From assembly GCA_016201285.1 (NCBI GenBank), contig JACQDE010000052.1:1-64000 (forward strand): DNA of 64,000 bases, in the 5' to 3' direction. The DNA comes from Acidobacteriota bacterium (GTDB lineage: Bacteria > Acidobacteriota > Terriglobia > Acidiferrales > UBA7541). Under the pieces are notes generated by a model, which searched no databases, was not told the DNA's origin, and worked only from the letters and a program-made list of their open reading frames with translations. This document shows, piece after piece, positions 607-64,000 of this stretch (its first letter is position 1; each line of letters opens with the position of its first letter). A program made the position numbers and the translations under genes.

Positions 607-1968
607 TTATCTGCGACCGGCGTTTGGGTGGATTTCGATCCAGCCGTGCTGCGGGTCCCAGGAGCGAATCAGCCGGGGGCCAAAGCGGTCAGGACACTTT
701 TCCCAGGGGTGGTTTATCTTTCCTTCGCGTTCCCATTTCTTGTGCAACTCCCGATAACCGTCGCTGTAGCTCGCACGCTGTAATCGAAAGTCCGGCGAGA
801 ACTCAAAGATGCCATCCGCCACTATTTTCCCTCGCGCGGCGGGAACATCGCTGGCTTCGGCAGACCTCGCCGTGACTCCTCCTTCTGAAGGCGAAATGAG
901 TACCACAGGGTTGTACCCGTTCGGGTCTAGCCTGTTCAATTCTGAGCGAGGGAAGACGAAATAGTGCAAGGGCCGCTCGGGAGGGCACGACTTGCACTCG
1001 AAGCCCGATCCTGGCTGCTCGGGGGAACTGCCAGTAACGTGATTGCCGTCCAGCACGGCGAGCATACCGGAAACCTCATCCTCGTGGTTGCGCACGCCCC
1101 CGGCCAACAGGAGAGGCCCAGCAGGTGTATCCACGGAACTGAGCGCGAAGATGTTGCCAGAGTTCACAAACCTTCCCAGCTCGCGCGCTTGCCCGTCAAA
1201 CAGCCAGAGCACAGAAGGCCACCAAGTGTTGTGATGTACCACGATTGCGATGCGCGTGTGACCCGCAGCGTGATAGACCAGCCAAACGCGGATGGGCCAG
1301 GGCGGACCATAATCTCCAGAAGCAAAAGTGAGAATTTCCTTGGGCTGAAAATGCCACAACAATCGGCCCGTCTCGGTGAAAAAGTAGAGCTCGCGCTCGT
1401 TTGCCGGCATTTCGGACCGGAGGCCTCCGGGCATGGGGACGCTCACCAGCGTCTGTCGCCCACCGCTGGCTTGGAGGTCGCCAATGTAAGCAATTGCCGG
1501 TGGCCGGGTCGGCGGCGATTCGGCAAGCTCTGTCGGAAGCGAATATGTCCACAGCGTCTTGCCGCTCTTACTCACACCCAAAAACCTGTTGTCGCGCAGC
1601 GTAACGCTGGCCAGCGGCGCGGATGACGTCGCCTTCCAAATGAGCGCGGCGGAGGCGTAGAGGCCAATCGCAAGAGCTGCAAGGATACCGGCTTGGACAA
1701 TGCGCGGAATCCGCGCCAGCCAGCCTAACGCCGGGGCCGCCACGCTTTCGTGGTGCGTCGCGGAACTTGGCCCGGCAGGCTTCGCGCCTGCCAGCCAGGC
1801 GTCTATCTCCTGATTATAGGCGAACACCCTACCTCTCCCCCGGCCGCCCACGTGATGAACCGGCAGACCGTCCTCCTGCCAACGCATGGCGGTCCGCTCG
1901 TCACACCGCAAGTAGGCGGCGATTTCTTTCCACGAGTCCAGACGTTTATCGCCCACGGGATCACTCAT
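607..1968 (-). CDS. Membrane-anchored helix-turn-helix regulator with extracytoplasmic domain
   Basis: 453 residues. The N terminus (about 8-60) reads LDSWKEIAAYLRCDERTAMRWQ-like, a helix-turn-helix common in Acidobacteriota one-component regulators. A proline/alanine linker is followed by a single hydrophobic segment at about 88-110. The remaining ~340 residues contain scattered strands such as KSGKTLWTYSLP that resemble PQQ or beta-propeller blades, but no family is certain. The arrangement predicts a DNA-binding domain in the cytoplasm and a sensor domain outside. It is divergent from the Kelch-protein gene at 2178, its most plausible local target, though that link is inference. Confidence 0.7.
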   Translation of the reverse strand: MSDPVGDKRLDSWKEIAAYLRCDERTAMRWQEDGLPVHHVGGRGRGRVFAYNQEIDAWLAGAKPAGPSSATHHESVAAPALGWLARIPRIVQAGILAALAIGLYASAALIWKATSSAPLASVTLRDNRFLGVSKSGKTLWTYSLPTELAESPPTRPPAIAYIGDLQASGGRQTLVSVPMPGGLRSEMPANERELYFFTETGRLLWHFQPKEILTFASGDYGPPWPIRVWLVYHAAGHTRIAIVVHHNTWWPSVLWLFDGQARELGRFVNSGNIFALSSVDTPAGPLLLAGGVRNHEDEVSGMLAVLDGNHVTGSSPEQPGSGFECKSCPPERPLHYFVFPRSELNRLDPNGYNPVVLISPSEGGVTARSAEASDVPAARGKIVADGIFEFSPDFRLQRASYSDGYRELHKKWEREGKINHPWEKCPDRFGPRLIRSWDPQHGWIEIHPNAGRR

Positions 1969-2177: not shown

Positions 2178-3485
2178 ATGCGATTTTCGAAACTCCTGAG
2201 CACGTCTGTTATTGGCCTCACATTCGCTCTGCCGGTGCCGGCGCAGGAGCCGACCTGGACGCAGAAACTCCCTGCGGCAAGTCCTCAAGGGAGATATGCA
2301 CACCATATGGCGTACGATGCTGCACGGGGTCAAGTGGTGCTGTTTGGTGGCGCCGATACCATCACCGGCACCAATTTCCACGACACCTGGGTGTGGGACG
2401 GGGCAAATTGGACCCAGAAGTCCCCTTCTACAAGTCCTTCGGGAACGGGCTCGCAAGCGATGGCGTACGATGCCGCCCGGCAGCAGGTCGTGATGTTTGG
2501 TGGCGCCGTTGGTGACAATGTCTTCAACACCGTCATTTCGTCCGATACTTGGGTGTGGGATGGCACGACGTGGACCCAGAGGTTCCCCGCGAACAGCCCT
2601 TCGCCTCGACTGGGCGCGGCAATGGTGTACGATCCCGTCCGCCAACAGGTGGTGCTGTTCGGGGGCGGACCTGGTTCTCCGGAGTCCTTCGGAGATACCT
2701 GGGTCTGGGATGGAAACAATTGGACGCAGAAGTTCCCGGCGACCAGTCCACCGGCACGGAGTAACTTCGGCTTCGCTTTCGATGTTGCTCGCGGACAGGC
2801 AGTGTTGTATGCCGGCAGGGGGGATGGCGACACCTGGTTGAATGATACATGGGTTTGGGATGGCACAAACTGGACGCAGAAATTCCCGGCAACGATCCCG
2901 ACGACACCGAGAGCTCTGCACCGCATGGCTTACGACGCTTCCCGGCAGCAGGTGGTGCTCTTCGGCGGACATGGACCCAGCAACGATCCCCTCTATGACG
3001 ACACATGGGTGTGGGATGGGGTTAATTGGACACAGAAGTTCCCGGCGAGCAGTCCCTCGGGCAGAACTGGGCACACTTTGGCCTTCGATGAAGCGTGCGC
3101 GGAGATTGTACTCTTCGGTGGCTTCACTGGTTCTTTCGCCGACGACACCTGGGTGTGGGGCGTCCCGAGCACCGACCCTTGCGTTATCAGAGTTGAAATC
3201 GACATCAAACCAGATAGCTTCCCCAATTCGATAAACCTCGGCTCGGGCGGAACCGTCCCCGTTGCCATCTTTAGCAGCCCATCCTTCGATGCCCGGACCA
3301 TTGATCCCCTCACAGTAAGTTTGGCGGGGGGGGGACACAATTGCAGTCTTGCGAGGGAAAACCTTTGGCAGAATCTCCGTCCGCGGGGAGGACTCCGTTT
3401 GAATAGTCCCGTGATTGGCCGTGTTTCGAAAGGCTCTCAGTCTTCGGCGCCCAGCGTCTTCATTTTGGAGAGCAGAGTTTTGTAG
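2178..3485 (+). CDS. Secreted Kelch-repeat protein with decayed C terminus
   Basis: The start chosen is ATG 2178, ten codons inside the longest frame, because it is preceded by GAGGTGGACGG and begins a signal peptide ending near PVPAQ. The body is five to six Kelch-like repeats with the pattern DTWVWDG..NWTQK...SP..R...MAYD..RQQVVLFGG, predicted to form a beta-propeller outside the cytoplasm. After repeat 6 comes the head of a module (EIDIKP.SFPNSINLGSGGTVPVAIFSS) known at the end of many secreted proteins, but the frame breaks at a run of nine G (3326-3334). Beyond that the listed reading frame is not convincing and it overlaps the 3' end of the convergent regulator gene. See the separate entry on the tail. 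Confidence 0.7.
   Translation: MRFSKLLSTSVIGLTFALPVPAQEPTWTQKLPAASPQGRYAHHMAYDAARGQVVLFGGADTITGTNFHDTWVWDGANWTQKSPSTSPSGTGSQAMAYDAARQQVVMFGGAVGDNVFNTVISSDTWVWDGTTWTQRFPANSPSPRLGAAMVYDPVRQQVVLFGGGPGSPESFGDTWVWDGNNWTQKFPATSPPARSNFGFAFDVARGQAVLYAGRGDGDTWLNDTWVWDGTNWTQKFPATIPTTPRALHRMAYDASRQQVVLFGGHGPSNDPLYDDTWVWDGVNWTQKFPASSPSGRTGHTLAFDEACAEIVLFGGFTGSFADDTWVWGVPSTDPCVIRVEIDIKPDSFPNSINLGSGGTVPVAIFSSPSFDARTIDPLTVSLAGGGHNCSLARENLWQNLRPRGGLRLNSPVIGRVSKGSQSSAPSVFILESRVL
3190..3414 (+). pseudogene. Decayed C-terminal module of the Kelch protein
   Basis: Removing one G from the nine-G run at 3326-3334 restores a reading DTIAVLRGKTFG..SVRGEDSV, which is the recognisable end of the IDIKP...SIRGTDSVRIVP module. 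Between the LAGG and DTIAV parts about 35-40 residues expected in the family are absent. The last residues are interrupted by TGA at 3400-3402 in place of an expected CGA (Arg); the next codons ATA GTC CCG TGA spell the usual IVP-stop. Three independent lesions (deletion, frameshift, nonsense) argue for decay rather than one sequencing error. Confidence 0.65.
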
Positions 3486-8085: not shown

Positions 8086-8165
8086 GCGGGCGCGACCCTT
8101 TACACGTCCACGTATTTGGGTGAAATGGTGGGGACAGGCATAACGACCTGCCACGTGTGGGAGCG
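8086..8165 (+). pseudogene. Relic fragment of an alpha/beta hydrolase paralogue
   Basis: About 80 bases translate to a peptide containing STYLGEMVGTGITT and CHVWE, matching STYFGDVVRTGMTT and NHVWE at about residues 213-240 of the intact hydrolase encoded just downstream (8299-9312). Both start with an AGA dipeptide context. No homology to the rest of that protein is evident around it. It is best read as the last remnant of a duplicated or earlier copy. Confidence 0.6.
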
Positions 8166-8251
8166 TTACGCTCTGCTGGGCACGACATCAACAGCACAAC
8201 ATGCACAGGGAGCAACCCAACCCTCGATTTATGCGGTTCGGCGGGGGGAAA

Positions 8252-8281
8252 TTGACACTTCGGCGCAGAGGCCTGGATAAT
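8252..8281 (+). promoter_or_regulatory. Sigma-70-type promoter for the hydrolase gene
   Basis: TTGACA at 8252-8257, an 18-base spacer, and GATAAT at 8276-8281. Predicted start of transcription is near 8288, only about 11 bases before ATG 8299. That argues against the alternative TTG start at 8290 and predicts a very short leader. Confidence 0.6.
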
Positions 8282-8298
8282 AAAATGGTTTGAGTATC

Positions 8299-9312
8299 AT
8301 GTCCTGGCTCGAACAAAAAATTCGGCGTTACGAACATGCCCGCTGGACCAGCGACGACAACCGGCAGGTGCTGCCGTTTGCGTGGGGGTTGGAGCACATC
8401 GGCGGGCGCGCCGACGAGCCGGACCCGCGCGGATTTCTGCGGCGTTTTTCTGCGGAAACGATTGCCCATAGCGACGCATGGTATGCGACCGAGCCGGCCA
8501 CGGACTACCGGCTGGAGGGCGACCGGCTGACGTTCACGAGCGCGATGGAGTCGCCGTGGGCGGAAAACAATCTGGTGCGGGCGCGATTTTTCCAGGCGAA
8601 GAAGTCCGGGCCGGCCGTGGTGGTGATGCCCAACTGGAACGCGAAGGCGGACAACCACGTCCCGATCTGCCGGTGGCTGAACACGCTGGGCATCACGGCG
8701 CTGCGGCTGGTGCTGCCGTACCATGAGGAGCGCAACGCGCCGGGGCACGAGCGCGCGGACCATCTGGTGGGGCCAAACATCGGACTAACCATCCAGGCGA
8801 ACCGGCAGGCGGTGATGGATGTGCGGCGGTGCCTGCGGTGGCTCGAGCAGATGGGTTATGGAAAGCTCGGGCTGCTGGGGACGAGCATCGGGTCGTCCAT
8901 TGCGTTCATTACGATGGCGCACGACCGCGCGGTGCGCGCCGGCGCGTACCTGCACGTGTCCACGTACTTCGGCGACGTGGTGCGCACAGGGATGACGACC
9001 AACCATGTGTGGGAAGGATTGCGCGCAAAGGTGTCAGCGGATGAACTCCGCGAGTACTGGGCGCCGGTCAGCCCGTTCCCTTACATCCACCGCGTGCACG
9101 GCACCGGCCAGCGCTGCCTGATGATTACCGGCAAGTACGACCCCACGTTTATTTCCGAGCTGTCCGAAGAGATTATCGGGTCGCTGCACTCGAACGGAGT
9201 GCGGCACGAAGTGCTGCGCTTGCCGTGCGGACATTATTCGCTGGGAGAATTTCCGTTCAGTTGGGCCGCGGGCGGGCGCTTCGCGGCGTTTTTTTTCCAA
9301 TACCTGACTTAG
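8299..9312 (+). CDS. Alpha/beta hydrolase family protein
   Basis: 337 residues from ATG 8299. The nucleophile elbow GTSIGSS is at about 194-200 (Ser196) after LGLL. A later GKYDPTF supplies a probable acid residue and CGHYSLG the histidine. A conserved strand VVVMPNWNAKAD precedes an oxyanion-hole region. No signal peptide. The family is related to uncharacterised bacterial hydrolases; substrate unknown. It stands alone between divergent and convergent neighbours with its own promoter. A fragment of a related gene lies in the upstream region. Confidence 0.8.
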   Translation: MSWLEQKIRRYEHARWTSDDNRQVLPFAWGLEHIGGRADEPDPRGFLRRFSAETIAHSDAWYATEPATDYRLEGDRLTFTSAMESPWAENNLVRARFFQAKKSGPAVVVMPNWNAKADNHVPICRWLNTLGITALRLVLPYHEERNAPGHERADHLVGPNIGLTIQANRQAVMDVRRCLRWLEQMGYGKLGLLGTSIGSSIAFITMAHDRAVRAGAYLHVSTYFGDVVRTGMTTNHVWEGLRAKVSADELREYWAPVSPFPYIHRVHGTGQRCLMITGKYDPTFISELSEEIIGSLHSNGVRHEVLRLPCGHYSLGEFPFSWAAGGRFAAFFFQYLT

Positions 9313-16450: not shown

Positions 16451-16506
16451 TCCGCTACCTCGTGCGTCGTGAATTGAGCCGCGAAGAGCGCCGAAGCGCT
16501 GACGGC

Positions 16507-16575
16507 TTATGCCTTCTCGGCCGGCACAAAGTATACGTCGGTCGGCTTGAATTGCGCGAGTCTGCGGAATCCGGC
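16507..16575 (-). pseudogene. Duplicated 3' tail of the DUF35 gene
   Basis: On the minus strand this reads FRRLAQFKPTDVYFVPAEKA then TAA, identical at protein level to the last 20 residues of the intact DUF35 protein at 17142-17708, with silent or near-silent base changes. It lies 22 bases past the DinB stop, so the DinB gene is bracketed by the true and the relic DUF35 ends. Confidence 0.75.
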
Positions 16576-16596
16576 TTCGCAGCGGTCCGCCAAAGC

Positions 16597-17088
16597 CTAT
16601 TCCAGCTTTTCGTCCGCCGACGAGCCGTAGATGGGAGGTACTTTCCCGCCGGTGAGCCGGATGTAGAGGCTGAGCTGCCCGCGATGGTGGATGGCATCGA
16701 ACATCACGGCCCACAGCATTTCCCCCAGGGGCAACTCATAGAAACCAGGTGCCACGCCGACGTTCAGCCGTACGTTCTTGTTTTCCCAAGTTTCATCGTC
16801 AAGCGCCTTGAGCCCGGGCTCAAAATCGGCATGTGCTTTCTGGTAGGCCGCGATGATTTTTTCAAGGCTCTTCGGCGGCGGCGTCTCTTTCCACTGGACG
16901 TCTTTGCCACTGGCCCAAGCCACGCATGCTTGTTCTTCCAGGACCAGCAACCACACCAGTGCCGCCGCCGTACGAGAGACAGGATGAGGCCGGAACTCTG
17001 GGTTGTCCGTGGGGAGGGCTCGGAACACCTTGAGAAACGTCGGGTACTCCTCCGCCCAACGCTTGATGAAAAACTCCCGGTTCGTCAT
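16597..17088 (-). CDS. DinB/YfiT-family putative metalloprotein
   Basis: 163 residues. Four-helix-bundle DinB-like protein: the first conserved histidine is in RPHPVSRTAAALVWLL near residue 35 and the His pair in FDAIHHRGQLSLYIRLTGGK near 137-138, the usual metal ligands. Such proteins include thiol-dependent transferases, but the function of most is unknown. It sits inside the thiolase/carboxylase operon and is flanked by a duplicate of the neighbouring gene's end, which suggests it was inserted there. Confidence 0.8.
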   Translation of the reverse strand: MTNREFFIKRWAEEYPTFLKVFRALPTDNPEFRPHPVSRTAAALVWLLVLEEQACVAWASGKDVQWKETPPPKSLEKIIAAYQKAHADFEPGLKALDDETWENKNVRLNVGVAPGFYELPLGEMLWAVMFDAIHHRGQLSLYIRLTGGKVPPIYGSSADEKLE

Positions 17089-17141
17089 GGCTCACCTTTT
17101 TATCCCCGCTCCGTCCACCAGCGCGGAATCGCTCGCGCCCT

Positions 17142-17708
17142 TCAGGCCTTCTCCGCAGGGACAAAATAAACATCCGTGGGCTTGAATTGCGCGAGTCTCC
17201 GGAACTTGGCCTTCACCGGCATGCCCACACGAATATCTTTTTCGGTGGCGCCGATGAGCCGTGAGAGGAAGAGGGTGTTGACGCCGTCGAATTCGATGAG
17301 CGCCAGGTTGAAGGGTGCCTCCTTGAGAAACGCCTCGGAGCCGAAATAACAGGTGGTCCAGGTATGGACGCGGCCGTTGAGCGGCAGGTCGAACCACTTC
17401 GTGGGCGCGCCACATTCCATGCAGTAGGCGCGCGGCGTGGCGAAGCGGTAGCCGCATTTGGTGCACTCGCTGCCGCAGAGCTTGCCTTCGGCGAGGCCGC
17501 GGAAGAAGGGCGAGTCCTCGGCGTAGCTGTGGATGTAATCAATTTCGTAGTGGCTCTTCACGGTCAGCGGGTCGGTGCAGAACACCACCGCGCCCTCGTC
17601 CGATTCCGGCAGGCGCACCTTGTCGTATTTGGGCTTCGGGCCGCCGGCTTTCGCGGGGCTGGCCTGCGCGCGCTTTGAGGATTTCTTGTTCGCAATTGTT
17701 TTGGCCAT
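17142..17708 (-). CDS. DUF35 zinc-ribbon/OB-fold acyl-CoA-binding partner protein
   Basis: 188 residues. A basic N-terminal tail precedes the zinc-ribbon cysteines (CGSECTKCGYR and AYCMECGAP), then an OB-fold (GRVHTWTTCYFG to VGMPVKAKFRRLAQF). DUF35 proteins bind acyl-CoA and pair with thiolase-like enzymes, either in thiolase/HMG-CoA synthase complexes or in steroid aldolases. The gene follows the thiolase-like gene by 33 bases, the standard pair arrangement. Confidence 0.87.
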   Translation of the reverse strand: MAKTIANKKSSKRAQASPAKAGGPKPKYDKVRLPESDEGAVVFCTDPLTVKSHYEIDYIHSYAEDSPFFRGLAEGKLCGSECTKCGYRFATPRAYCMECGAPTKWFDLPLNGRVHTWTTCYFGSEAFLKEAPFNLALIEFDGVNTLFLSRLIGATEKDIRVGMPVKAKFRRLAQFKPTDVYFVPAEKA

Positions 17709-26020: not shown

Positions 26021-26053
26021 CAAGCAGATTCCTCGCTTCGCTCGGGATGACAG
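26021..26053 (+). repeat. Family-1 repeat, core form
   Basis: CAAGCAGATTCCTCG then CTTCGCTCGGGATGACAG. The core is nearly identical to the copies flanking the GIY-YIG gene. Confidence 0.8.
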
Positions 26054-58221: not shown

Positions 58222-58815
58222 ATGGAACAACCCGCCAACAGCACTCTACAACCCAAAGAGCAGGGCGCGTCTCTTTCCGCGGTGCGCGCGGCGGTGGTGA
58301 ACTGGACGCGCGACCTGCTAATCGCGCTGGGCCTGGCGGCGGTGATCATCGTCTTCCTGTACCAGCCGGTGAAGGTGGAAGGCACGAGCATGTCTCCGCT
58401 GCTGACCGACCAGGAGCGCATCTTCATCAACAAGTTTGTCTATCGCTTCGAGCCGATCCAGCGCGGAGACGTGGTGGTGTTCTGGTATCCGCTGGACCGC
58501 TCGAAATCGTTCATCAAGCGCGTCGTCGCGCTCTCCGGGGACACGGTGGAGATCCGGCAGGGCCGCGTGGTGGTGAACGGCAAGGAAGTGGACGAGCCGT
58601 ACGTGCCGGCGCAGTTCGCCGACCGCAACTCGCTCGCGCCGGCGCGCATCCCGGAAGGATCGTTTTTTGTGCTCGGCGACCACCGCAACAGCTCGAACGA
58701 TTCGCGCGTGTTCGGCGCGGTGCCGGGACAATTCATTTACGGAAAAGCGGTCTTCGTGTACTGGCCGGTGGAGCGCTTTGGCGCGCTGCCGGCGCACGAC
58801 AGCGATCAGCAATGA
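58222..58815 (+). CDS. lepB: Signal peptidase I
   Basis: 197 residues. One N-terminal transmembrane segment (about 30-48), nucleophile Ser56 in VEGTSMSPLL, general base Lys99 in SFIKRVVALSGD, and box E GDHRNSSNDSRVFG. Single-span, compact form as in Gram-positives and many Acidobacteriota. Removes signal peptides at the outer face of the inner membrane. Its stop is 18 bases upstream of the carA start. Confidence 0.94.
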   Translation: MEQPANSTLQPKEQGASLSAVRAAVVNWTRDLLIALGLAAVIIVFLYQPVKVEGTSMSPLLTDQERIFINKFVYRFEPIQRGDVVVFWYPLDRSKSFIKRVVALSGDTVEIRQGRVVVNGKEVDEPYVPAQFADRNSLAPARIPEGSFFVLGDHRNSSNDSRVFGAVPGQFIYGKAVFVYWPVERFGALPAHDSDQQ

Positions 58816-58833
58816 TGCGATTCGGAGGACAAC

Positions 58834-60099
58834 CTGAGGCTCAACGGAACCCCCGCGATTCTCGCGCTCGAGGACGGGCGCGTATTTAACGGGCGCGCGG
58901 CGGGCGCTCGCACCCGCCGGGGCGGCGAAGTTGTTTTCAACACCAGTCTCACCGGCTACCAGGAAGTTTTTACTGACCCCAGTTATTCCGGCCAGATTGT
59001 CTGCCTCACCTACCCGCACATCGGGAACGTCGGCACAAACGTAGGTGACGAAGAATCACCGCGGCCGTACATCGAGTCGCTGATCGTGCGCGAGTTTTCC
59101 CAGCTCGCGTCGAACTATCGCTCAACGGAAACGGCACAAAACTATCTCGAACGGCACGGCATTCCCGTGATCTGGGATCTGGACACGCGCGCGTTGGTGC
59201 GGCACCTGCGCACGGTGGGCGCGCTGCGCGGCGTGGTGTGCACCGACGGCACGCCAGCGGCCAAGCTGATCAAAGAGGCGCGGGCGCTGCCGACCATGGC
59301 CGGACTCGAACTCGCCAGCCGCGTAAGCTGCGACCAATCGTATGAATGGGCACGCGGCTCGGTGGAACTCGCAGCGGCGGCAGGGGCCGCGGCGGGGACG
59401 AGTGGAGGACTGACGCGAGCGTACCGCGCCGACCAGCCATCCCTGTTTACGGCAGTTTCTGCAGGGGCGACCCATTCGGCAAGCTCAGGGCAGGCCGGCA
59501 GGTCGCCCGACGCGGATGCGCGGCGATTCAGCGTGGTCGCTTACGACTTCGGCATTAAGCAAAACATTCTGCGGGTGCTGGTGGACCATCATTGCGACGT
59601 GCGCGTGGTGCCGGCGAAAACGTCTGCCGAGGACGTTCTGGCGCTGAAACCAGACGGCGTGTTTCTCTCCAACGGCCCGGGCGATCCCGAACCGGCCACG
59701 TTTGCCATCGAGAGCATTCGCAAGCTGCTGGGGCGCGTGCCGATGTTCGGCATCTGTCTGGGGCACCAGCTCTGCGGGCTGGCGCTGGGCGGGCGGACGT
59801 ACAAGCTGAAGTTCGGGCATCACGGGTCGAACCATCCGGTGAAAAACCTGCTGACGGAAAAGGTGGAGATCACGGCGCAAAATCACGGCTTCGTGGTGGA
59901 CCCGGAGTCGCTGCCATCAAGCGACGTGGAAATCACCCACGTCAACCTGAACGACCACACCAACGAAGGCATGCGCCACCGCACGCTGCCGCTGTTCAGC
60001 GTCCAGTACCACCCGGAGGCCTCGCCCGGACCGCACGATTCGCGCTACTTATTCCAGGAGTTTTTGGACCTAATGATGACGCAAGAGGGCCGCCCATGA
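58834..60099 (+). CDS. carA: Carbamoyl-phosphate synthase small subunit, likely CTG start
   Basis: 421 residues. No ATG, GTG or TTG lies between the in-frame stop at 58813 and the conserved start of the protein. CTG 58834, four bases after GGAGGA (58824-58829), is the likely start and yields [20 protein letters not shown], then [19 protein letters not shown] as in CarA. The glutaminase domain has the Cys308 elbow ([11 protein letters not shown]) and [11 protein letters not shown] histidine. Between the two domains a family-3 repeat at 59470-59496 encodes [10 protein letters not shown], an extra linker. It makes ammonia for carbamoyl phosphate. Confidence 0.9.
59470..59496 (+). repeat. Family-3 repeat inside carA
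   Basis: ACCCATTCGGCAAGCTCAGG-GCAGGCC, in frame, encoding THSASSGQA. Same unit and frame as the two copies in the EamA gene at 43218-43265. Confidence 0.85.
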
Positions 60100-60773
60100 A
60101 CTTCGAGCATTTTGCTGCGGCTGTCCGATTCTACGAAACGCTCCGATATGATTCCGTCTATTTCCGATTTGTCGATCTGGTGGACCGGGAGTGGCCCATT
60201 CCCTCTAGGCAATTGGCAAGGCACATCGTCCGTTTTCTTAACAAGTTTGGGATGCGGTTGCGCGAGAGCGATAAGCTTCTCGATGGAATTCAATCTGCAA
60301 TTTTGCAGGCGCTTCCCTATCTGCAACTGCTGAGAGGCTGGAAGATAGAAGATTGTGACCTTGATGCCACAATCCGAGTGGGCGGTGACGAGATCCCTGT
60401 TAGGAAGGCCGCACAAGATGTCTTCCGAATATTTTACAAAGTTGGGCAGGGCTTTGCGCTTGTTGCCCCAGCTAAGACAATGCATTTATTGGCGCCAAAT
60501 TTCTTCGTGATGTGGGACGACAGCACCTCGGGCAAGTTGACTCGCCGGCGATGGCCGTACTGGGAGAGTTACGCAAATGTATTTCTGCCGAAGGTGCAAG
60601 TAGACCTTGAAGGCCTTGTCAAGGAAACCATGGGGCGGTTTGCTCTCTCTAGTAGAAGGGACGCAATCGAAAACCTTCAATCCCTGCCAAAGCGTACAAA
60701 AACTATGGCCAAACTGGCTGACGAGTATTACTACTCGCGATTTACGCGAGATTTATTTCGGGCGAAAGCGTAG
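60096..60773 (+). CDS. Uncharacterised protein with lower GC than its neighbours
   Basis: 225 residues from ATG 60096, overlapping the carA stop by four bases (ATGA). Mixed alpha-helical sequence with [38 protein letters not shown] and [20 protein letters not shown]. No catalytic motif recognised. Its codons are visibly richer in A and T than carA or carB, suggesting recent acquisition. It separates carA from carB together with the GIY-YIG module. Function unknown. Confidence 0.7.
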
Positions 60774-60845
60774 ATGCCAAAGCGGACAGACATCCACAAA
60801 ATCTTAATCATCGGTTCGGGGCCGATCGCCATCGGACAAGGCCGC
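60774..60845 (+). pseudogene. Duplicated head of carB
   Basis: The first ~66 bases from ATG 60774 translate [20 protein letters not shown] then GQG, matching the carB start at 61351 ([20 protein letters not shown] then GQA) with about eight base differences. Homology then stops and the frame runs through unrelated sequence into the inverted family-1 repeat. Confidence 0.8.
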
Positions 60846-60892
60846 GAGCCGCGACGCAATTGGAAGGGGACCATTTCGTCCGCAGAAAAAGG

Positions 60893-60923
60893 TTGTCATC
60901 CCGAGCGAAGCGAGGGATCTGCT
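60893..60923 (-). repeat. Family-1 repeat, inverted copy upstream of the GIY-YIG gene
   Basis: Plus-strand TTGTCATCCCGAGCGAAGCG then AGGGATCTGCT; on the minus strand it is the standard core. Ends six bases before ATG 60929. The ribosome site, if any, would be GAGGGA inside the repeat. Confidence 0.85.
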
Positions 60924-60928
60924 CTTGC

Positions 60929-61312
60929 ATGAATGAGAGAAGCTATTTCGTGTACATCCTGGCGAGTCGTTCGAGAAACCTCTACACCGGAATTACGAAC
61001 CATCTCGAGCGCAGAGTGTATGAGCACAAAACGGGGAGGATCCCAGGTTTCACGACCCGCTACCGCATTCACCGACTGGTGTACTTTGAGACCTTTGGCG
61101 ACGTGAACGCCGCGATTGCACGCGAAAAGCAAGTCAAGTCATGGAGAAGAGAGAAGCGAGTGGCCTTGATTGAGAAGGGAAATCCGACTTGGCACGATTT
61201 AGCAGCGGAGTGGTACTCACCCCCTGTGAAATACAAGCCGTTGGGACAGGCACTGGAAGAAAAGCAGATCCCTCGCTTCGCTCGGGATGACAAACAGAAG
61301 CAGGCGAGATGA
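60929..61312 (+). CDS. GIY-YIG endonuclease-fold protein bracketed by inverted repeats
   Basis: 127 residues from ATG 60929 (MNERSYFVYILASRSRNLYT). GIY block YFVYIL near 6-11, YIG block LYTGIT at 18-23, conserved ERRVYEHKTG, AREKQVKSWRRE and NPTWHDL, the layout of small stand-alone GIY-YIG proteins related to the UvrC N domain. The last residues (EKQIPRFARDDKQ) are translated from the family-1 repeat at 61261-61293. Sequence to GxxExxY is unrelated, but both end in their own repeat family. Activity is not shown by sequence alone. Confidence 0.88.
   Translation: MNERSYFVYILASRSRNLYTGITNHLERRVYEHKTGRIPGFTTRYRIHRLVYFETFGDVNAAIAREKQVKSWRREKRVALIEKGNPTWHDLAAEWYSPPVKYKPLGQALEEKQIPRFARDDKQKQAR
61261..61293 (+). 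repeat. Family-1 repeat, direct copy at the GIY-YIG 3' end
   Basis: AAAGCAGATCCCTCGCTTCG then CTCGGGATGACAA; nearly perfect inverted partner of 60893-60923. It is translated as the last part of the GIY-YIG gene. Confidence 0.85.
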
Positions 61313-61350
61313 AAGGCAACTGCAATAGGGACGGGAATAGCAAGGACTAG

Positions 61351-64000
<2,650 letters not shown>

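Follow-up and report, generated by a model that had tools for sequence, protein, structure and literature searches.

Background

Genomic islands and small integrative elements that use tRNA genes as targets have the tRNA 3' end on both sides of the insert (attL and attR) and leave the target intact. In fungal mitochondria, free-standing ORFs for homing-type nucleases are found between two copies of a host-gene terminus, of which one completes a working gene and the other is displaced. Such mobile ORFs (mORFs) accompanied by a gene terminus have been described for atp6 in Allomyces and for atp9 (with a GIY-YIG nuclease), atp6, cox2, and nad3 in Glomus, and their mobility is stated to be driven by the nuclease (PMC3630166). 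As homing nucleases of group I introns, GIY-YIG proteins are tied to conserved genes including those for tRNAs, which are known to harbour introns in the anticodon region (PMC3984707). Small free-standing UPF0213-like GIY-YIG genes, whose role is unknown, occur in many bacteria. Our literature search, whose coverage excluded subscription papers and preprints, returned the fungal analogue and no report from bacteria.

The locus described here lies near the end of a 64,000-nt stretch of DNA from an Acidobacteriota bacterium (genome G000); this whole stretch is called the window. Here and at other places in this and related genomes, a small GIY-YIG gene separates an intact conserved gene, such as carB, kdsD, or one of many tRNA genes, from an incomplete copy of its terminus.

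The duplicated carB head

The carA reading frame (58816..60099, plus strand) ends with a TGA that overlaps the ATG of the next ORF (ATGA). This ORF (60096..60773, plus strand) encodes 225 residues and ends with a TAG directly ahead of the ATG of a detached carB head, copy 1 (60771..60848, plus strand), a remnant comprising the first 75 bases of carB. Because the TAG abuts this ATG, copy 1 is in the normal translational position of carB, and the ORF itself is apparently translationally coupled on both of its sides. The ORF is an orphan, for which neither a Pfam, NCBIfam, or PADLOC family nor a match in 199 other genomes of the class was found. The reading as a defence gene between carA and copy 1 was rejected for want of matches in the three collections. 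Relatives have different, unrelated ORFs at this place. Copy 1 is followed by the left REP-like inverted-repeat arm of a GIY-YIG cassette (60893..60926, plus strand), the gene of the 127-residue GIY-YIG nuclease (60929..61312, plus strand), whose 3' end runs through the right arm (61260..61293, minus strand), and copy 2 (61348..61425, plus strand), with which the intact carB opens (from 61351 to beyond the window end, plus strand).

The two heads form a direct repeat (60771-60848 and 61348-61425) of 78 nt with 86% identity and a start-to-start spacing of 577 nt. Its BLAST core comprises the first 68 nt at 89.7% identity (E 3e-21), and its score of 96 compares with a maximum of 32 in 200 shuffles of the spacer (z = 28). 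An earlier note on this DNA had described 66 duplicated bases, about 12% different and 577 apart, which is correct for the first 66 nt, where seven of the eight differences fall on third codon positions. Chance and gene-family repeats are ruled out as source of the duplication by the shuffles together with the control scans reported below.

The GIY-YIG nuclease and its REP-like arms

The GIY-YIG module that had been proposed to lie between the heads is confirmed by the catalytic domain of the nuclease (Pfam PF01541, 50.7 bits against a cut-off of 22.6, E 2e-13). The nearest solved structures are those of UPF0213 proteins with 1zg2 as the best one, and the named relatives belong to several Acidobacteriota, including the closest, as well as to Chloroflexi, Planctomycetota, and others. 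In other phyla, genes for nucleases closely related to the window type are accompanied by long repeats, none of which could be identified as a gene terminus, and by no tRNA copies.

The two arms have 34 nt each, are 97% complementary, and are members of a sequence family that occurs about 50 times in the own genome. The palindromic REP-like family (TCATCCCGAGCGAAGCGAGGGATCT and variants) is also present at 26026-26050 of the window and at about 50 places of the own genome. The cassette has REP-like ends but no Y1_Tnp, and by that test it is not a REP/RAYT element. An Rfam scan of 58800-62500 revealed neither an intron nor any other RNA family at carAB; group I and group II introns are ruled out, as Rfam detected no intron at carAB or at seven tRNA-type loci, where it found tRNAs only. 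No integrase is encoded inside the repeats, which in the window and at two tRNA loci of the own genome (L003, L004) leave room for the GIY-YIG gene only. The repeats measure 33-46 bp at the clearest tRNA loci and 68-78 bp for the window carB. They are too long for an ordinary DNA transposon, whose target duplication would be about 2-15 bp.

Detached carB heads in other genomes

The carB N-terminus was searched in 60 relatives and the first 32 carB residues in 299 genomes of the class, and the compared genomes included draft assemblies. Detached heads upstream of an intact carB were found in five other genomes of the class (G039, G040, G037, G237, and G002), and G038 has an additional 17-nt stub of the carB head. 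The layout of G039 is the same as in the window with a GIY-YIG gene between the heads. A GIY-YIG gene thus adjoins a carB-head remnant in G000, G039, and G038 (the stub). In G037, G040, and G237, the last belonging to another family, a RAYT transposase gene is located between the heads (Y1_Tnp was detected in G040, a homologue in G037), and the G037 head was read over a contig break at which the ends overlap by 26 nt. Nothing recognisable lies between the heads in G002, which is of the same genus as the window; its decayed head was spotted by eye and then scored z = 12. The duplicate without the module, which the earlier note had named as an observation against its reading, is thus present in these four genomes, which have heads without GIY-YIG.

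A carB-head profile detected the remnants in the spacers of G000, G002, G039, and G040 at E 1.1e-9 or better. The G038 stub reached E 0.03 and is found at the correct place, five bases before the REP end of the GIY-YIG cassette; its 7.6 bits compare with a maximum of 6.2 bits in 148 kb of control DNA. GIY-YIG or RAYT genes are present in 10 of 41 carA-carB gaps, some of which are cut by contig ends. A carB remnant occurs in 5 of these 10 gaps and in 1 of the 31 others (p 0.0018, kinship ignored); among gaps longer than 300 bp only, p is 0.14, again with kinship ignored. About 25 of the 29 REP-flanked GIY-YIG loci, which represent the carB type, have no gene-terminus copy. In the assembly G177 two contigs (L118 and L114) each contain carA followed by a carB start, with different spacers, and probably represent two strains in one assembly.

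Over the six pairs of head copies, 36 of 57 differences are at the third codon position. In five of the six genomes the remnant is closest to, or tied with, the carB of its own genome, so that any donor must have been close. Several histories were tried and rejected. A foreign carB head in G002 is not indicated because the divergence from the G000 carB is about the same in the head as in the body, leaving no hybrid signal. A shared ancestral insertion in G000 and G002 is not borne out by their spacers and upstream ORFs, which align no better than shuffles. A single homing lineage at carB is unsupported since a weakly resolved tree requires 5 changes for the carAB GIY-YIG genes, compared to 5.7 after shuffling.

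GIY-YIG genes at tRNA genes

GIY-YIG loci were compared with themselves to find repeats. Each of the four GIY-YIG genes that were detected first in the own genome was bracketed by copies of the neighbouring gene's terminus, namely the carB head, the 5' part of a tRNA-Trp, and the 3' parts of a tRNA-Val and a tRNA-Ala. A tRNA gene next to a GIY-YIG gene with a partial tRNA copy on its far side is found in the own genome for tRNA-Val (L003:1406-1803), tRNA-Ala (L004:1414-1794), tRNA-Trp (L002:424-901), and tRNA-Lys (L197:1536-1925). With the tRNA-Ala-linked protein as query, tRNA-type GIY-YIG genes were found in 27 of 61 relatives. The genes at 47 of the 54 tRNA-type loci lie at most 150 bp from a tRNA gene, and all 47 are on the same strand as the tRNA. 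A repeat spans the GIY-YIG gene in 41 of these 47 loci; the repeats, as far as they were classified, mostly start with tRNA sequence and are mostly partial tRNA copies. The tRNAs used are those for Val, Ala, Ile, Arg, Asn, Ser, Met, Trp, Lys, Leu, Pro, and Gly. Elsewhere in the phylum, a distant tRNA-type match in G431 adjoins a tRNA-Asn, and tRNA-type genes are present in only 2 of the 199 genomes of the sample that includes G431. The tRNA-type nucleases have the GIY-YIG domain in common with the window protein but share only about 30-40% identity with it.

At many Ala, Ile, and Val loci the repeat begins with AGGTC right after the anticodon arm and continues to or past the CCA. Several repeats are 100% identical, and a few extend 9-14 nt into the flanking DNA. 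Repeats reaching past the CCA fit a target duplication made at insertion. In front of the right repeat, a GC hairpin (e.g. TCCCGATAAGATCGGGA) replaces the anticodon arm, and its loop often contains the stop codon of the GIY-YIG gene. Such a hairpin with the stop in the loop was noted at the right ends of L194, L168, L170, and L004. Among genomes of a single genus, G018 and G034 carry an insert at a tRNA-Ala that is empty in G006, G109, G103, and G159. Because the flanking DNA is conserved only between some of these genomes (G018 and G006), the empty sites should be read as orthologous tRNAs and not as fully aligned loci. In G133 (L266, tRNA-Ala at 1503-1578, minus strand) the locus is a deletion derivative, in which the tRNA is accompanied by the 3' copy and by no more than the last part of the GIY-YIG gene.

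GIY-YIG genes at kdsD and a LysR-type gene, and controls

Protein genes other than carB are also affected. In G039 the order is kdsA, a copy of the kdsD head, the GIY-YIG gene, a second head copy, and the intact kdsD. In total, three copies of the kdsD start surround the GIY-YIG gene between kdsA and kdsD at L141:1364-2077. In G020 a LysR-type gene is intact, and a decayed GIY-YIG gene separates it from a 65-nt copy of its 3' end. The names kdsA, kdsD, and LysR are tentative ones from a reading of the translations.

Dummy positions in the window gave 5 hits in 209, which are the carB repeat itself and four in internally repetitive coding regions. Such regions with direct repeats of 60-143 nt are found at 2301-3061, 8086-9014, and 16487-17204 of the window. 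The own genome, a draft of 87 contigs, was sampled in 20-kb pieces. In 464 kb of this DNA there are 25 local repeat pairs, and gene-terminus copies around GIY-YIG genes are found only at carB and tRNA-Val. The same DNA contains no other comparable gene-head copies except for one tandem gene pair. The latter, two tandem genes with a common zinc-ribbon-like start (MFCPQCKSEYRKGFTRCKDC) at L255:12974-13490, was rejected as a gene-terminus scar. Partial tRNA copies accompany none of five tRNAs without GIY-YIG and both of the two tRNAs with GIY-YIG. RAYT insertions outside carAB are associated mainly with REP-type repeats and with no identifiable gene terminus, and RAYT was therefore rejected as a general cause of the duplications.

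Origin of the detached head

We favour, with a probability of roughly 0.6, the reading that copy 1 was left as a scar when a GIY-YIG cassette inserted into the 5' end of carB, and that the locus is an instance of a more general behaviour within this group of bacteria. The cassette, composed of the nuclease gene and the REP-like ends, would have broken into the original carB head, leaving the first 75 nt of carB behind attached to the upstream operon, and a second, complete head directly downstream would have kept carB functional. The nuclease may cut the empty gene terminus, and repair may then bring in the cassette along with a second terminus, either duplicated on the spot or taken from a related donor. 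Since carB and the tRNAs are needed, an insertion would persist only if it restored the gene. A RAYT gene at the same spot could be a secondary arrival in a REP-rich spacer or a second element that came by the same route. That copy 1 is the native head, now displaced, is no more than suggested by its position and by the third-position bias. Such a bias would fit a divergence that was partly under coding constraint, as for an imported head, but some of it would also be expected if the intact copy was constrained and the remnant beside it decayed neutrally.

The description of the locus in the earlier note as an insertion scar with an overlong duplication is thus supported, but detached heads also occur without GIY-YIG, and the homing it had suggested would be a hypothetical route. 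The same duplicate at other GIY-YIG insertions, which that note had regarded as informative, was found strongly at tRNAs and also at kdsD, the LysR gene, and the carB of G039. The link of the carB scar to GIY-YIG specifically is moderate, because the RAYT cases have the same scar and most REP-flanked GIY-YIG loci do not have one. Given the other cargo at carB and the scarless loci, the cause at carB could be a REP-bounded unit or a prior duplication.

The latter would mean that the carB head was duplicated first, by unequal exchange, by polymerase slippage at a GC hairpin of the carB start, or by import of a neighbour's carA-ORF-carB segment, and that the dead copy and the spacer offered free room to REP, GIY-YIG, and RAYT sequences. 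The decayed duplicate without a cassette in G002, the three genomes with RAYT in place of GIY-YIG, the often long carA-carB gaps with unrelated ORFs, and the end points of the remnants, which vary between about nt 17 and beyond nt 75 of the carB head, are all consistent with this order of events. However, it does not explain the tRNA, kdsD, and LysR cases, a remnant is found in only one of the element-free carAB gaps, and comparable gene-head copies other than the tandem pair are missing from the sampled own DNA, so that we regard a prior duplication as unlikely. Alternatively, REP/RAYT activity might have made the scar if a Y1 transposase moved REP-bounded DNA and took adjacent host DNA with it or duplicated it, the GIY-YIG gene being just cargo. 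The REP-like, multi-copy cassette ends and the RAYT genes between the carB heads of three genomes point in this direction, as does the G040 repeat, which reaches into REP sequence upstream of the head. Nevertheless, such activity is quite improbable as the source, since RAYT loci outside carAB show REP-type repeats only, the tRNA-type GIY-YIG elements have gene-terminus copies but mostly no REP ends, and a close RAYT homologue was not found in the own genome at E 1e-20.

The tRNA loci could also be viewed in terms of RNA processing. The tRNA, the nuclease mRNA, and the remnant would form one transcript of functional parts, which is cut out by tRNA-processing enzymes, and the partial tRNA copies would be kept for this purpose. 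Every tRNA-linked GIY-YIG gene is indeed co-oriented with its tRNA, the remnant retains the T arm and the CCA while a hairpin, often with the stop codon, replaces the anticodon arm, and one remnant folds well as RNA (z -2.8). This idea is inapplicable to the carB, kdsD, and LysR copies, some tRNA copies are 5' halves ahead of the gene (L002), and processing would be compatible with an origin by insertion; we regard it as rather improbable. A mis-join in a draft genome could mimic a duplicated head, and not only is the own assembly split into 87 contigs but contigs also break at or near the carA-carB spot in G037 and G033. This is very improbable because independent genomes have the same layout, the copies share a run with unusual codon choice (CACAAAATCTTAATCATC) despite a divergence of 10-14%, and the operon context is unbroken on either side.

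Returning to the insertion of a GIY-YIG cassette, its general form leans mostly on the tRNA subfamily, which is connected to the window protein by the GIY-YIG domain and about 30-40% identity. We are slightly more inclined to accept than to reject that minimal bacterial elements of about 300-600 bp exist, with a GIY-YIG nuclease as their only gene, that insert in tRNA and other conserved genes with duplications of about 33-78 bp and leave the target whole. In tRNAs they would use a fixed point immediately 3' of the anticodon arm, and in conserved genes such as carB and kdsD they would enter at the start or the end.

Comparison with known systems

The small GIY-YIG proteins of the UPF0213/YhbQ type (1zg2 and 1ywl) are sequence relatives of the window nuclease. 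Their structure entries are named hypothetical proteins, and these names carry no mobility, unlike the reading proposed here. If some of these genes were the sole genes of integrase-free elements that spare their target through a duplication of its end, this would explain their position beside tRNA and core genes in the genomes described here. REP/RAYT elements (TnpA-REP; PMC2817692, PMC8266576) resemble the window locus in that REP-like palindromes flank the cassette, and RAYT is found at the same carA-carB spot in relatives. In contrast to them, the cassette encodes a GIY-YIG protein and no Y1 transposase, and RAYT elsewhere is not accompanied by gene-terminus copies. The carA-carB junction would be a natural recording site for insertions of the kind proposed here, should the reading be true. 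With tRNA-integrating islands, the tRNA-type loci have the repeated tRNA 3' end and the intact target in common. However, the insert here is about 300 bp long and contains one GIY-YIG gene and no integrase, the repeats begin just after the anticodon arm with several continuing past the CCA, and 5' ends and heads of protein genes are also used. Group I introns differ in that the target is interrupted and spliced, whereas here it is duplicated at its end and no Rfam intron is present.

The architecture of the fungal mORFs is found at carB in G000 and G039, at kdsD, and at the tRNA genes. In contrast to the mitochondrial cases, these loci are on bacterial chromosomes, the 5' end and not the 3' end of carB and kdsD is duplicated, tRNA genes are the main targets, the nucleases have only 80-130 residues, the cassette at carB has REP-like ends, and nuclease-driven mobility would be a prediction. 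If the reading is true, it would provide a compact testable model, in which a nuclease alone spreads through essential genes, and the mechanism of the fungal mitochondrial mobile ORFs would extend to bacteria.
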